A DNA stretch of 64,000 nucleotides from Verrucomicrobiales bacterium (GTDB lineage Bacteria; Verrucomicrobiota; Verrucomicrobiia; Limisphaerales; UBA9464), in assembly GCA_027483345.1 (NCBI GenBank), contig JAIXUV010000034.1, positions 1-64,000 of the forward strand, in the 5' to 3' direction. Position 1 is the first letter of the stretch; each line of letters opens with the position of its first letter. Positions 28,870-36,640 of this stretch are shown piece after piece. A program made the translations under genes and the position numbers. The notes below the pieces were generated by a model. The model did not search any database and was not told the origin of the DNA. It was given only the letters and a program-made list of their open reading frames with translations.

Positions 28870-28933
28870 AGAAGAGGTGGGAGGACGCTTGCCGGCACTG
28901 GAGTTTCTTCCGGGAACCGGCGACGCTTCACCC

Positions 28934-29695
28934 ATGAAGATGTTGCTGACGACGGCCCTCTCGCTCACCGCGGTCGCAGGCGTTTCCATGGCCCAAGTCG
29001 TGTATTCCGGCGGACTCGGGACCTCCATGGCAGACCAGGGATGGGCCTACCAGGCCAGCACGGTTCCCGAAGGAGGCACGGCGTCCGCGACGACCGGATT
29101 CTCTGGTGGCGCGACCGTGGGCAACACCACACCGGCGATCACGGATCGCGCAGGTTGGGCCTACGGCAGGACGATCGCGCCCTCGTTCCCGATTCTGGAC
29201 AGGTCGACGGGGTACACCGTAACCCTCGATCTTTCCGTCGGCTCCGAGAACCACTCGAGCAACGACCGGGCCGGCTTCAGTTGGACCACCATGGGTTCCG
29301 ACGGGTTCGGCGTGGAGTTCGGCTTCCACGGAGACAGCGTGTGGGCCCAGGGAACCACGCCCACGGTCTTCACACGGGCCGAGTCTGCCACCACGGACAC
29401 CTCGATCCGGAACACCTACACCCTCTCGGTTTTCGGATCGGGCTACACCCTCGCCAACTCCGGAGGGACGCTGCTGACCGGAAGCCTGCGGAACTACGCT
29501 GGAGCCGGTGCTCCGGCGATCCCGTACGCGACGTTCCAGAACTACATCTTCCTGGGCGACAACACCGCGGCCGCCGCGGCGACCTATTCGATCTACGAGG
29601 TCGCCGTCGCGGTGCCGGAACCGGACCGGATGGCGGTGATCGCGGGCATGATGATGATCCCCGCACTGCGGTTCCTCCGGCGCGCACGGCGCTGA
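28934..29695 (+). CDS. PEP-CTERM sorting-domain secreted protein
   Basis: N-terminal signal MKMLLTTALSLTAVAGVSMAQ; C-terminus AVPEPDRMAVIAGMMMIPALRFLRRARR (PEP motif + TM + basic tail). Confidence 0.8.
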   Translation: MKMLLTTALSLTAVAGVSMAQVVYSGGLGTSMADQGWAYQASTVPEGGTASATTGFSGGATVGNTTPAITDRAGWAYGRTIAPSFPILDRSTGYTVTLDLSVGSENHSSNDRAGFSWTTMGSDGFGVEFGFHGDSVWAQGTTPTVFTRAESATTDTSIRNTYTLSVFGSGYTLANSGGTLLTGSLRNYAGAGAPAIPYATFQNYIFLGDNTAAAAATYSIYEVAVAVPEPDRMAVIAGMMMIPALRFLRRARR

Positions 29696-30578: not shown

Positions 30579-31484
30579 TCAGAACTTGGCGAGCTTCTCC
30601 AGTTCGCGGACCCGGGCGAGGATCTCCTTCTTGGCGGTCTTGGTGGTGACGTTCAATCCGAAGCCCTCGCAGCAGAACGAGGCGACCACCGATCCGTGGA
30701 CAATCGCCCGACGGAGGTTGGTCTCGATCGAGCCGGACTTCTGGGACGCGAGGAAGCCGATGAGGCCGCCGACGAAGGAGTCTCCGGCGCCGGTGGGATC
30801 GACCACCTTCTTGAGGGGGAAAGCCGGAGCGACGAAGAGCCCCTTGGGCCCGGACAGGACCGAGCCGTGTTCACCCTTCTTGATGATGACGTACTTGGGC
30901 CCCAGCTTGTGGATCTTGGGGAGCGCGTTGACGACGTTGTCCTCGGAGACCAACTGCCGGGCCTCGCTGTCGTTCAGGACGAGGCAGTCGATGCGCTTGA
31001 GCAGGCTCAACACCTCGGGCAGCGCGATGTTCAGCCAGAGATCCATGGTGTCCGCGATCACGAACTTGGGCTTGGACACCTGATCCAGGACGCGGTGCTG
31101 GACGGAGGGCGAGATGTTGGCGAGGAGGATGAAGGGAGTGGTCTCGTAGTCGCCCGGCAGCACGGGTTGCCAGTTCTCGATGACACCCAGGACGGTCTCG
31201 AGCGTACGGCGGTTGTTCATGTTGACCTCGTACTCGCCCGACCAATGGAAGGTCCGTCCGTCGGCCACACGCTCCAACCCCTTGAGGCAAAGACCGTGCT
31301 TCTCGTACAGCTTGATGTACTTGGCCGGGAAGTCGCCACCGACCACGCCGACGAGCTTGGTCGGGGCGAAGAAGCTGGCGGCGACGGCCGCATGGCTGGC
31401 GGAACCTCCGAGAAGACGGGGATTCTCCGACTTCGGGGTCTTGATGGAGTCGAGTGCGGTGGTTCCGACGACGAGGACGCTCAT
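30579..31484 (-). CDS. PfkB-family carbohydrate kinase
   Basis: MSVLVVGTTALDSIKTP...GGSASHAAVAASFFAPTKLVGVVGGDFP; DPTGAGDSFVGGLIGFLAS signature. Confidence 0.9.
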   Translation of the reverse strand: MSVLVVGTTALDSIKTPKSENPRLLGGSASHAAVAASFFAPTKLVGVVGGDFPAKYIKLYEKHGLCLKGLERVADGRTFHWSGEYEVNMNNRRTLETVLGVIENWQPVLPGDYETTPFILLANISPSVQHRVLDQVSKPKFVIADTMDLWLNIALPEVLSLLKRIDCLVLNDSEARQLVSEDNVVNALPKIHKLGPKYVIIKKGEHGSVLSGPKGLFVAPAFPLKKVVDPTGAGDSFVGGLIGFLASQKSGSIETNLRRAIVHGSVVASFCCEGFGLNVTTKTAKKEILARVRELEKLAKF

Positions 31485-31660
31485 GTTCAGATCAGATCGA
31501 TTCTAGGGTGGATCGCGACGGCCGGGACGTTAGTCCACATGGGAAATCCGGTGCAATGGCGCCGTTTTGGGAGGGTTTCTGGCCGGCTCGACGATGCCGG
31601 AAACTTTTTCCCGATGGAGGCTTGATTCCCCCCGTGTTTCGCCGTTGATGGACGGCGTTC

Positions 31661-31852
31661 TTTGTCAGGGCCGGACCCGACGTCCGGCCTCGATCAAACA
31701 TCATTGGAGCTGCGGGAACGCCGTGAGAATCGGCGACGGTTGCGCCACTGTATCGGGTTACAAACCCCCCTGGTCATCGAGACAGCCACTGGAAGCGATT
31801 CCGGGAAGGCGGGGGGCGAGGTTGAGATCCGTAGTCAGGATATCGCGCCAGT
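31661..31852 (+). promoter_or_regulatory. Cobalamin (B12) riboswitch
   Basis: Ordered conserved blocks: GCCGGAC/GTCCGGC hairpin (31670-31688), GGGAAcGCCGTGAGAATCGGCGACGGTTGCGCCACTGTA (31714-31752), GCCACTGG (31785-31792), CCGGGAAGGC (31801-31810), AGTCAGGATATCGCGCC (31833-31849, B12-box-like). Order and spacing match the cobalamin riboswitch family (RF00174 type). Confidence 0.88.
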
Positions 31853-32090
31853 GATGCTCGTCCGATCCCGGGAACAACCCGGGGTCACTTCGCCGCAAAG
31901 CGAAGGATGGAGCCAGGACTGCCCCGATCGACCGGTTGGGGCGGAGCATGCGAATGTCCGACGCCTTCATTCACTGCCTTGCCGGGGATGGAGGCGTTTC
32001 CAATTCCAGGAACCCTTCAGCCGCCGGCCCTGGTCTCACATCGACACCCCCACCATGACGGAACCGCATGGAGGGATCGTGAAAGAGACC

Positions 32091-32915
32091 ATGAAACCGA
32101 TCCACAGACTCGCCGGGACCGCCGCCGGCATCCTCACCGCCACATCCTTGTTCGCGCAGTACGCGACCACGGTTGTCGACTACATCCCCGGTGCCGGATT
32201 CTCCGCCACCCGCACCAATGCCATCGCCGCACTCGGCGAGCCCAGCCGGATCACTCCGGGCGACTTCGGTGGGCCGGTGGACCCGTTCGCCCCGCCCTAC
32301 ACGGCCACGCAATTGGTCAGCGTCGGCGCCGGCGGTTCCATCACCGTCGGTTTCGCCAATCCCATCCGCAACGACCCCGCCAACCCATACGGCATCGACT
32401 TCAACGTTTTCGGCGGCGGCGGCTTCCTCGTCACCAACGCGTTCGACGCCAACTTCAGCTACATCGGGGTCCCGTCCACCGATGGAACCCTGTTCAATCC
32501 CAACGGCGGCAGCACCCGCGTCAGCGTCAGTCCGGACGGCTCCAACTGGTTCGTCCTCGACCCGGCGCTGGCGCCGAAGGTCGACGACCTTTTCCCGACG
32601 GATGGCAGCGGTGACTTCACGCTCCCCGTCCCGCCCTCCCTCCGGTCGGAGCCCCTCGGCGGACTCACGTTGGCCGACGTGCGGATCCGCTACGCCGGTT
32701 CGGCGGGAGGCGCCGGCTACGACCTCGGCTGGGCCCGTGCCTCCGGAGGCGGTCCGGTGTCCCTCGACAGCGTCTCGTTCGTCCGGATCGAAGTGTTGAG
32801 CGGCCGCTCGGAGATCGACGGCTTCGCCGCGGTCGGCGCCGTCCCGGAACCGTCGACCATCGCCCTGTTCGCCGTCGGCGCACTGGCCTGCCTCGGATTC
32901 CAACGTAACCGCTGA
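32091..32915 (+). CDS. PEP-CTERM cell-surface protein downstream of cobalamin riboswitch
   Basis: MKPIHRLAGTAAGILTATSLFAQYATTVVDYIPGAGFSATRTNAIAALGEPSRITPGDFGG...; C-terminus AVPEPSTIALFAVGALACLGFQRNR; ATG at 32091. Confidence 0.85.
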   Translation: MKPIHRLAGTAAGILTATSLFAQYATTVVDYIPGAGFSATRTNAIAALGEPSRITPGDFGGPVDPFAPPYTATQLVSVGAGGSITVGFANPIRNDPANPYGIDFNVFGGGGFLVTNAFDANFSYIGVPSTDGTLFNPNGGSTRVSVSPDGSNWFVLDPALAPKVDDLFPTDGSGDFTLPVPPSLRSEPLGGLTLADVRIRYAGSAGGAGYDLGWARASGGGPVSLDSVSFVRIEVLSGRSEIDGFAAVGAVPEPSTIALFAVGALACLGFQRNR

Positions 32916-32944: not shown

Positions 32945-33304
32945 ATGAAGGCCAAGGGACAGGTCGCGCACCACGCGTCGGCCTGTCCCCTTTGCGGCGG
33001 TGAAAACGCCTGCGGCGCGGACCGCATCTCGACGGGCGGAACCTGCTGGTGCCAAAAGGTTGAGATCCCTGCCGTCCTGGCCGGGAAGGTCGGCGCCACT
33101 GGGAGCTGCCTTTGCCGCGGGTGCATCGCGGAACACCGGAAGCAAACCCGCTGGATGCCGCGCGCCGAGCCGTCGGAGACCTATCAGGACGCTGCCGGGA
33201 GACTGGTCTTCCGGGCCGCCTACCACCTGCGTCGGGGCTACTGCTGCGGCAATGGCTGCAGGCACTGCCCCTTTGGCTTCACCACCCCGCTTCCGGAACC
33301 ATGA
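32945..33304 (+). CDS. Cysteine-rich CWC / DUF5522-like protein
   Basis: ACPLCGGENACGADRISTGGTCWCQKVEIP...GSCLCRGCI...YHLRRGYCCGNGCRHCPFG; 12 Cys in 119 aa; ATG at 32945 (TTG at 32927 alternative). Confidence 0.82.
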   Translation: MKAKGQVAHHASACPLCGGENACGADRISTGGTCWCQKVEIPAVLAGKVGATGSCLCRGCIAEHRKQTRWMPRAEPSETYQDAAGRLVFRAAYHLRRGYCCGNGCRHCPFGFTTPLPEP

Positions 33305-34296
33305 GGAACTGCGTTCAGCCAAAGCCGACCTTCGCGGTCCTGCTTTTGACGGCGGCCTCGGCAGCCCTCGCCACCAACGCAGCGGAGCGGTTGTCCGAGG
33401 ACTTCTCGAAGCCTCCCCAGCAGTCGGGCTGGATCCGCTTCGGAGACACGGAGCTGTCCCGTTGGGATTCCGTGGGGCAGCAGCTGGAATTCACCTGGGA
33501 TTCCTCCCGCCCCAACAGCGGGATCGCCCATCGCCTGCCCCGGGTCATGACCGACAAGGACGACCTGGCCTTCGCCTTCGACCTCGAGCTGTTGTCCCAT
33601 GAAGTCGGCGTCGACCCGGCCCGGCCATCGACCTTTCAGATCGCCGCGGGACTGGTCCGCTTGGATGCGGTTCGTTCCTTGGATTACGTGCGGGGTGCTT
33701 TGCCGGGACCCCGTGACACCCTTGAATGGACTTGGTTCGGGGCGAAGGACCCCATCGCCGCGTCGATCTCGCCGACGGTCATTCCATCGGATGGCCGGCT
33801 TCCTTGGGGCTACGCCGACAGCTTCGTCACGCTGGAGGTCGGGACCCGCTACCGGTTCGACGTCCAGTACACGGCCTCCGACCGGACGTTGAGGCTACGC
33901 ATGAAGACCGGCAGCGAACCCGGTCCATCCCTGGACAGCATCGTCCTGCCTCCGGCGTTCACCGGGTTCTCGGTCGACGCCTTCGCGATCTGCAGCTACT
34001 CGGCGCAGGGCCAGCATCCGCTCTTCGGAGGATCCGTCCTTGCCCGTGCCGTGGTCGACAACTTGCTGATCACCGTCCCAGCCCCGCCGGTGGAACTGGT
34101 CCGGATCGACGGCAAGCAGGTCTCCTTCCGGGCTTCGAAGGGTTGGCGATACCGGCTGGAGGCCTCCGGGGATCTCCAGGAATGGAGCGTGGTCGACACC
34201 GTGGAACCCACGGAGGACGGAGTGGTCCGCATGTCCGACCTGCGCGATGCGGTTTTCCGGGAGCAGTTCTATCGCGTTCGCGCGGTTCGGCCATGA
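33301..34296 (+). CDS. Secreted hypothetical protein
   Basis: ATG at 33301 overlaps upstream TGA (ATGA); signal MRNCVQPKPTFAVLLLTAASAALATNA; C-terminal WRYRLEASGDLQEWSVVDTV...REQFYRVRAV. Confidence 0.75.
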   Translation: MRNCVQPKPTFAVLLLTAASAALATNAAERLSEDFSKPPQQSGWIRFGDTELSRWDSVGQQLEFTWDSSRPNSGIAHRLPRVMTDKDDLAFAFDLELLSHEVGVDPARPSTFQIAAGLVRLDAVRSLDYVRGALPGPRDTLEWTWFGAKDPIAASISPTVIPSDGRLPWGYADSFVTLEVGTRYRFDVQYTASDRTLRLRMKTGSEPGPSLDSIVLPPAFTGFSVDAFAICSYSAQGQHPLFGGSVLARAVVDNLLITVPAPPVELVRIDGKQVSFRASKGWRYRLEASGDLQEWSVVDTVEPTEDGVVRMSDLRDAVFREQFYRVRAVRP

Positions 34297-35033
34297 GCCA
34301 TGGGAGCCGCGAAGACTTTCGACAGGCCTTCACCTTGGTCGAACTCCTGGTGGTGGTCGCCGTGATCGGGATCCTCGCGGGACTTCTTTTGCCGACGTTG
34401 GGAAGCACACGTCAGGCAGCCGACAGGAGCCGATGCACTACCAACCTGCGTCAACTCGCCCTCGCGGCACAGCTCTATTGGGACGACCATGGAGGTCGCG
34501 CCTTTCCTGAACGCGGCGTGAGGACCAATGGTGGATGGATCTACTGGTTTGGTTGGCTGGCGGATGGCTCGGAAGGCCACCGCGAATTCGACCCGACCCG
34601 CGGCGCGCTGTGGCCGCACCTGCGCCAACAGTCGATCGGCGTTTGTCCCGCCCTTGACCGCTCGTCGGCACAGTTCAAGTCCAAGGCCTCCGGCGCCGCC
34701 TACGGCTACGGCTACAATCTCCTGGTGGGAACCCGCTCCGAAGCCGGCATCCGCATCCCAGAGATACGGAGCCCCACCGACCTCGCCGTCTTCGCGGACT
34801 GTGCCCAAGTCAACGACTTCCAGCCCCCGGCCTCGCCCTCGAATCCCATGCTCGAGGAGTTCTACTACTTCGACCTGCTGACGCCGTCGGTCCATTTCCG
34901 CCACCGCCGGCGCGCGCTCGCCGCGTTCGCTGATGGACACGTGGAACCGCAACGTCCCCAGGAGGGTTCGGCCGATCCCCGGATTCCGGGACAGCTCGTC
35001 GGTCGCCTGTCCGAGGACCGCGTCCGTCCCTGA
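34293..35033 (+). CDS. Prepilin-type N-terminal methylation domain protein (type II-like pseudopilin)
   Basis: ATG at 34293 overlaps upstream TGA; FRQAFTLVELLVVVAVIGILAGLLLPTLGSTRQAADRSRCTTNLRQLALAAQLYWDDHGG; C-terminal ALAAFADGHV. Confidence 0.92.
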   Translation: MSHGSREDFRQAFTLVELLVVVAVIGILAGLLLPTLGSTRQAADRSRCTTNLRQLALAAQLYWDDHGGRAFPERGVRTNGGWIYWFGWLADGSEGHREFDPTRGALWPHLRQQSIGVCPALDRSSAQFKSKASGAAYGYGYNLLVGTRSEAGIRIPEIRSPTDLAVFADCAQVNDFQPPASPSNPMLEEFYYFDLLTPSVHFRHRRRALAAFADGHVEPQRPQEGSADPRIPGQLVGRLSEDRVRP

Positions 35034-35179: not shown

Positions 35180-36640
35180 GTGCAAGACCTCCCAGAAGGC
35201 ATCGGCGGTGCCGATTCCGGAACCAAGCCGGACTTCAAGCGTTCCAAGCGGAACCGCTCCGCGGTGGACATCTCGAAGCTGGACCGTCTTCCGCCCCACT
35301 CGGTGGAGGCGGAACAGGGAGTTCTCGGCTGCGTGCTGCTCTCGCCGAACGAGTGCATGGGTCTCTGCATCGAGAAGTTCAAGTCGGGCGCAGAGACCTT
35401 CTACGACCTCCGCCACCAGGCCATCTACCAACTGCTGGCCGACATGTACGACAAGAAGGACGCGATCGACCTGATCACCGTCCAGCAGAAGCTCAAGGAC
35501 ACCAACCAGCTCGAGGGCGTCGGCGGGCTGGCCTACCTCAGCGGGCTGCAGGACGCCGTTCCCAGCGCGGCCAACCTCTCGTACTACATCGACATCGTCC
35601 GGGAGAAACACGTCCTGCGCCGGATGCTGAGCGCCTGCACCGGCGTGGTCTCGAGGGTCTACGAACACGAAGGCGAGGTGGACAGCCTGCTCGACGAGGT
35701 CGAACGCGACATCCTGCGGATCAGCGAGGACCGCGAAACCTCCACGATCCGGCCGATGAAGGACCTCGTCCGCGGGGCGATCGACATGATCCAGGAGTTC
35801 CACCAGCGGGCCGGCGGCCTGACGGGGCTGCCGACCGGATTCGCCGACTTCGACAAGATGACGAGCGGCATGCACGGAGGGGAGATGATCGTGATCGCGG
35901 CCCGTCCCTCGATGGGCAAGACCTCCCTGGTCATGAACATCGCCGAGCACATCGTCATCAACGAGAAGCAGCCGGTCGGCGTGTTCAGCCTCGAGATGAC
36001 CTCCGAGTCGCTGGTCATGCGTATGCTCTGTTCCCTGGCACGGGTGAACGGGCGGTCCATCCGCGAGGGCTTCATGGCCGAGCAGGACTTCAAGAAGCTG
36101 ACCGGCGCCGCTGCCAAGATGGCGAAGTCGCCGCTGTTCATCGACGACACCCCGGGCCTTTCGATCCTCCAGCTCCGCGCCCGCGCGCGCCGGATGTGGC
36201 AGCAGCACGGCATCAAGCTGTTCATCATCGACTACCTCCAGCTGATGCACTCCACGTCCAAGAAGGCGCAGGACAACCGCCAACAGGAGATCTCCGACAT
36301 CTCGAACGGGGTGAAGTCGCTGGCCAAGGAATTGAACGTCCCTGTGATCGTCCTGTCCCAGCTCAACCGTGAACTGGAGAAGGACAAGAACCGCAAGCCG
36401 CGCCTGTCGGACCTCCGCGAATCCGGTGCGATCGAACAGGACGCCGATCTGGTCGGCCTTCTCTACAAGCCCGCGGAGGAGGAGGAAGACGTGTCTGAGG
36501 CCCGTCAGCCGGTGGAATCCCACCCCGTGAACCTCCTGATCGCAAAACAGCGCAACGGCCCGACCGGCGACGTCCGACTGACCTTCTTTAAGAGCTTCAC
36601 ACGGTACGAGTCTGCGGCGAAGCTCGACGCCGAAGACTGA
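35180..36640 (+). CDS. dnaB: Replicative DNA helicase DnaB
   Basis: LPPHSVEAEQGVLGCVLLSPNEC; GEMIVIAARPSMGKTSLVMNIAEH; IDYLQLMHS; VIVLSQLNRELEKDKNRKPRLSDLRESGAIEQDAD; GTG start. Confidence 0.97.
   Translation: MQDLPEGIGGADSGTKPDFKRSKRNRSAVDISKLDRLPPHSVEAEQGVLGCVLLSPNECMGLCIEKFKSGAETFYDLRHQAIYQLLADMYDKKDAIDLITVQQKLKDTNQLEGVGGLAYLSGLQDAVPSAANLSYYIDIVREKHVLRRMLSACTGVVSRVYEHEGEVDSLLDEVERDILRISEDRETSTIRPMKDLVRGAIDMIQEFHQRAGGLTGLPTGFADFDKMTSGMHGGEMIVIAARPSMGKTSLVMNIAEHIVINEKQPVGVFSLEMTSESLVMRMLCSLARVNGRSIREGFMAEQDFKKLTGAAAKMAKSPLFIDDTPGLSILQLRARARRMWQQHGIKLFIIDYLQLMHSTSKKAQDNRQQEISDISNGVKSLAKELNVPVIVLSQLNRELEKDKNRKPRLSDLRESGAIEQDADLVGLLYKPAEEEEDVSEARQPVESHPVNLLIAKQRNGPTGDVRLTFFKSFTRYESAAKLDAED

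Follow-up and report, generated by a model that had tools for sequence, protein, structure and literature searches.

BtuG1 and BtuH2 are B12-binding surface lipoproteins of gut Bacteroides. In BtuH2, cobalamin is contacted by Tyr510, Trp511, Trp577, His476, Asn399 and Gln333. It is the C-terminal domain of BtuH2 (PDB 7BIZ) that binds cobalamin (PMC8941943), and BtuG1 of B. thetaiotaomicron (PDB chain 8blw_B) carries a C-terminal BtuH domain (PMC10404256). DUF4465 proteins (BtuJ) are likewise extracellular B12 scavengers of beta-jellyroll fold, encoded in riboswitch-controlled loci and reported from PVC bacteria as well (PMC13398666). At the RNA level, cobalamin riboswitches of the RF00174 family with an L5-L13 kissing arrangement and an intrinsic terminator are known (PMC9600662). 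Our literature search found no paper tying a cobalamin riboswitch to the PEP-CTERM genes described here, to DUF1559 or to BtuH in Verrucomicrobia; the lone joint match (PMC12530212) concerns c-di-GMP riboswitches.

Here, we analysed a 64,000-nucleotide stretch of a Verrucomicrobiales genome (the window) in which a cobalamin riboswitch precedes four genes for mostly secreted proteins. We consider it likely that the locus is a riboswitch-repressed, exosortase-anchored B12-capture operon of the BtuH type, with B12 binding and regulation both predicted. The most probable reading is a B12-repressed operon that adds exosortase anchoring and a dedicated pseudopilin to scavenging of the BtuH type. Such an operon would carry BtuH-type B12 capture beyond gut Bacteroides, to proteins that Verrucomicrobiota anchor by an exosortase. 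It would also suggest what a set of unannotated secreted proteins, encoded together throughout a common bacterial order of freshwater and soil, is likely to do, and tie one DUF1559 pseudopilin subfamily to a specific nutrient.

An initial annotation, made by reading sequence blocks, had placed a cobalamin riboswitch at 31661–31852. All of the blocks it quoted are present in the order given, and cmscan agrees: the sole Rfam match above the gathering cut-off in the whole window is RF00174 (Cobalamin) at 31688–31866 on the + strand, which scores 66.6 bits where 31.5 are required (E=3e-14). The match spans model positions 1–189, a full-length aptamer, and was recovered with the covariance model from the window and from the whole genome alike. 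The element was thus correctly recognised, but its interval lay some 15–25 nt too far upstream and left out the expression platform (31888–31999), which that description lacked altogether. Within the aptamer, loop L5 (UUGCG, 31740–31744, +) was located by the covariance-model alignment and by its pairing with L13 across about 67 loci. Two terminator-like hairpins lie just 5′ of the aptamer (31583–31600 and 31640–31657, +), where about 0.7 would be expected by chance; no + strand gene ends there.

How might the aptamer control the genes behind it? About 20 nt 3′ of the aptamer lies a hairpin, P13 (CTTCGC-CGCAAA-GCGAAG, 31888–31905, +), whose loop L13 (CGCAAA, 31894–31899) is complementary to L5; the homologous helix is 99.5% paired in relatives, with one covarying pair. 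L5 and L13 change together among relatives: TTCCG occurs with CGGCAAA in 7/7 loci and TTACG with CGTCAAA in 4/4. By inspection the pairing is inexact in places, and loci with L5 TAGCG match their partner less perfectly. Further downstream (31961–31999, +), 31961–31972 pairs with 31986–31997 in a 12-bp terminator hairpin followed by a weak U tract (TTTCC). The homologous hairpin of relatives (GCCTTC...GAAGGC) shows covariation and has a T tract behind it in most. A stem of 5 bp or more, together with 4 or more T in 8 positions, was present in 63 of 69 loci, against 17% of mononucleotide shuffles. Over 33 sequences, P13 and the terminator were 87.9% paired, compared with 49–54% when the structure was slid, a control that partly favours the structure because it was derived from those same sequences; both-side changes numbered 27, against 12.1 ± 2.3 after shuffling.

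The predicted antiterminator strand, GGATGGAG (31905–31912, +), would pair with 31965–31972 in the 5′ strand of the terminator. This helix (GGATGAGGC with the terminator 5′ strand) is 96.3% paired in 33 sequences and shows no covariation among them because it is too invariant. A constrained fold extends the antiterminator form to L13 and the 3′ strand of P13. Taken together, L5/L13 kissing and the conserved antiterminator/terminator pair predict an OFF switch acting by transcription termination. As a Cbl-I type riboswitch, the element would repress the B12-capture operon when intracellular cobamide is high: bound ligand would favour L5-L13 kissing and P13, freeing the downstream hairpin to terminate transcription. 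With no ligand, L13, the 3′ strand of P13 and GGATGGAG would instead pair with the terminator 5′ strand, and the operon would be read. Compared with the known RF00174 systems, the window likewise has a full-length aptamer, P13/L13 and, downstream, a predicted terminator. In contrast to them, its platform is clade-specific, L13 and the 3′ strand of P13 also enter the predicted antiterminator, and the terminator tail is weak.

This weak tail bears on the mode of control. In the window a perfect 12-bp stem is followed by TTTCC only, so that termination there may be weaker or factor-assisted. Tails are also short in the closest relatives, and a generic terminator scanner did not list the window hairpin. 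Alternatively, the operon could be B12-related but controlled mainly at translation, or by a riboswitch partly degenerate in this clade. We regard this as unlikely, if worth keeping in mind, since neither the 12-bp stem nor P13/L13 is disrupted, T tails are strong in most relatives and, by eye, we saw no conserved pairing with the ribosome-binding site or start region, for which reason a platform sequestering the ribosome-binding site was set aside.

The predicted regulation would act on four co-directional genes. Gene 1 (32091–32915, +; start ATG 32091, GTG 32079 possible) encodes a secreted protein, BtuH-like by profiles and fold, with a C-terminal PEP-CTERM anchor (motif about 32838–32906; PF07589 in Pfam, 26.4 bits). 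Gene 2 (32945–33304, +; alternative start TTG 32927) encodes a Cys_rich_CWC and DUF5522 protein by Pfam. Gene 3 (33301–34296, +) encodes a secreted protein with no Pfam match, conserved in relatives, whose AlphaFold model (pLDDT 93.2) and fold search indicate a ConA/legume-lectin-like beta-sandwich followed by a C-terminal beta domain. Gene 4 (34293–35033, +) encodes a pseudopilin with N_methyl and SBP_bac_10/DUF1559 matches in Pfam/NCBIfam. ATGA overlaps join gene 2 to gene 3 and gene 3 to gene 4. These domain searches bear out the gene content first read from the sequence (a PEP-CTERM protein, a Cys-rich protein, a secreted protein and a pseudopilin), and the divergent pfkB-family kinase is also where it was said to be (30579–31484, −). 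The kinase was not counted with the system, being kept only in the four closest genomes, and the next gene 3′ of the operon is dnaB, at 35180; both lie outside the conserved block because flanking genes vary between relatives. Another secreted protein, with a choice-of-anchor Y domain, is encoded near the operon at 28880–29695 (+).

Judged from the genome sequences, an entire order has retained the riboswitch in combination with the operon. A gene 1 homologue occurs in 46 of 59 relatives, and in 44 of these 46 genomes a riboswitch lies directly upstream on the same strand, at a median of 312 nt; in 39 genomes it is the only RF00174 match. The order g1-(g2)-g3-g4 (genes 1 to 4) recurs in the relatives and in the majority of some 77–79 loci drawn from named public genomes, a set that overlaps the 59 relatives. 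Genes 1 and 3 are fused in several genomes, and other classes of the phylum have riboswitch-g1-g4 as their core. By title, nearly all of the public loci come from MAGs of Verrucomicrobiota (Pedosphaera, Verrucomicrobia subdivision 3), with some labelled Akkermansia muciniphila and one Planctomycetota. Several MAGs titled Akkermansia muciniphila or Prosthecobacter debontii (L113, L116, L125, L130, L160 and others) have a Pedosphaera-type locus and look taxonomically mislabelled.

Profile and model evidence places the gene 1 product among the remote relatives of the BtuH domain, which binds B12. A profile of 28 gene 1 homologues matched 8blw_B first among PDB chains (E=5.1e-6), then 7biz_A (0.06), and two further profiles again placed 8blw_B first (E=1.5e-5 and 1.7e-6). 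The matched stretches of 8blw_B fall in the BtuH part of BtuG1. Fold comparison led to the same proteins: when gene 1 was modelled with AlphaFold2 (pLDDT 93.3) and the model searched with Foldseek, the result was 8blw_B (E=1.1e-6), 7biz_B (4e-4) and 7biz_A (6e-4), each at a probability of 1.00, as the only matches at E≤0.001 among 350,542 PDB chains. The kinship is remote because TM-scores to BtuG1/BtuH2 are low (0.40–0.47), the domain scores of single segments are weak (i-E 0.016 and 0.49) and one profile built mainly from other classes (A8) had no PDB match at E≤1 and so did not recover BtuH. Like BtuH and the H-domain of BtuG1 (7BIZ, 8BLW; PMC8941943, PMC10404256), gene 1 encodes a secreted, predicted surface-exposed beta-sandwich in a B12-riboswitch-controlled locus. 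It differs from them in its very low identity (about 15–18%), in having a PEP-CTERM/exosortase tail in place of a lipoprotein anchor, in lacking Ig-like/PKD domains and in sharing its locus with pseudopilin and CWC/DUF5522 genes. It also differs from the DUF4465 (BtuJ) scavengers, since neither gene 1 nor gene 3 matches that family (PF14717) in Pfam.

What, then, do the encoded proteins do? In our favoured scheme, the gene 1 product would be exported and held at the cell surface through its PEP-CTERM tail and an exosortase, for which the source genome has three EpsH matches. There, its BtuH-like beta-sandwich would bind cobamides, and the products of genes 2–4 (the CWC/DUF5522 protein, the lectin-like secreted protein and the pseudopilin) may be accessories dedicated to this uptake. 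These roles, like B12 binding, anchoring and the direction of regulation, are what we infer from the computed homologies and structures. The division of labour could also be reversed, with gene 3 as the main B12-binding component and gene 1 as an accessory. Several members of the order keep riboswitch-g3-g4 without gene 1, and in some genomes (G040, G042, G046, G048, G052, G055 and G057, for example) the riboswitch is followed by g3 with no g1 detected. Yet the fold matches of gene 3 are generic ConA-like lectins and it has no significant PDB sequence match, which makes this arrangement quite improbable.

A more radical alternative is that B12 is only a signal here for an envelope function outside B12 biology, an adhesin or lectin working with the pseudopilin, in which case the ligand of gene 1 would be a sugar or some other compound, and gene 1 would resemble BtuH only as one generic beta-sandwich resembles another. 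CBM32-like galactose-binding folds do rank after BtuH in the fold search, so that gene 1 could conceivably bind a sugar; moreover, gene 3 is lectin-like and searches of Pfam and NCBIfam attached no B12-related label to any operon gene. However, the only significant fold matches and the recurrent top profile matches, drawn from all PDB chains, are B12-binding proteins, and known B12 transport genes occur in homologous operons and behind the same riboswitch, so we consider this alternative very unlikely.

These transport links take several forms: (i) in G193, the gene after riboswitch-g1-g4 encodes an ABC ATPase fused to FecCD; (ii) in G281, the genes run g4-g1-BtuF-BtuC-BtuD, the permease scoring best against BtuC, with no riboswitch detected at this stretch; (iii) the operons of G019 and G042 (L058, L101) include BtuF-like and DUF6580 proteins, the CWC domain being fused to the BtuF-like protein in G042; and (iv) in the sister genomes G037 and G041, where g1 is missing, the gene behind the riboswitch encodes a BtuB-like TonB receptor, all scores falling short of the curated equivalog cut-offs, and a P13/terminator platform like that of the window operon is also visible in G037. 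Compared with these BtuFCD importer and BtuB operons, the window operon shares the riboswitch and, in some of its homologues, BtuF/C/D, whereas it has no BtuB, BtuF or BtuC gene of its own. The initial annotation was right that the operon contains no recognised B12 genes, but the target outside B12 biology that this implied finds no support, because riboswitch and operon are co-conserved, gene 1 is remotely related to BtuH, homologous operons include BtuF, BtuC, BtuD or DUF6580 genes and the same riboswitch precedes a BtuB-like gene in two sister genomes. Most likely, the operon serves B12 scavenging in Verrucomicrobiota of freshwater and soil and is not a B12-unrelated target. We set aside a locus that combines TonB receptor, FecCD and DUF4465 with a protein resembling gene 1 very weakly (L227/L229/L230), as it has no cobalamin riboswitch and adjoins a Fur-family-like regulator. 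In these three loci, from another family of the class, the regulator, DUF4465 or other secreted proteins and a TonB receptor are clustered, with FecCD/ABC genes in L227 and L229; the cluster is possibly a metal-regulated cobamide or metallophore uptake system.

The B12 economy of the order was surveyed by family searches, as was that of the source genome. The source genome (5.08 Mb, 402 contigs, 95.5% complete, 5.4% contaminated) encodes a B12-dependent MetH, and a methylmalonyl-CoA mutase-like protein was read by eye on contig C243, a possible contaminant. CbiC is absent from this genome and from all 59 relatives, with MAG incompleteness as a caveat. The same caveat applies to BtuC (FecCD), which is convincingly found in almost none of the 59: it is strong only in G046 (1e-85) and partial in G052, the others having weak partial matches (about 1e-4 to 1e-13). 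Peripla_BP_2 occurs in 14 of the 59 and TonB receptors in 57; in the source MAG, the TonB receptor contig C167 may be contaminant DNA. A DUF6580 membrane protein is encoded by 54 of the 59 and lies inside the riboswitch operon in at least two, which makes it a candidate inner-membrane B12 component. Tentatively, an order that keeps B12-dependent enzymes but lacks de novo synthesis, and whose genomes nearly all lack BtuC as well, could use the operon as a different B12 import machine, in which the pseudopilin, lectin-like and CWC/DUF5522 proteins would work with the BtuH-like receptor and perhaps with DUF6580 at the inner membrane. How cobamides are imported is directly testable here because the genomes appear to need B12, mostly without a recognisable BtuC.

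The source genome contains exactly two RF00174 matches, the window aptamer and a stronger one of 109.7 bits on contig C94 (L110, 5783–5974), directly upstream of the nrdB/nrdA genes for class I ribonucleotide reductase. Class I ribonucleotide reductase genes are a classical cobalamin-riboswitch target. Strong second matches of this nrdBA type occur in only a few close relatives (G004, G006, G013), and nrdA-like genes also lie behind riboswitches in G048 and G050. The divergent neighbour of the nrdBA riboswitch is a CbiX-like ORF (sirohydrochlorin cobaltochelatase type; L001, 375–1493, −), recognised by eye only.
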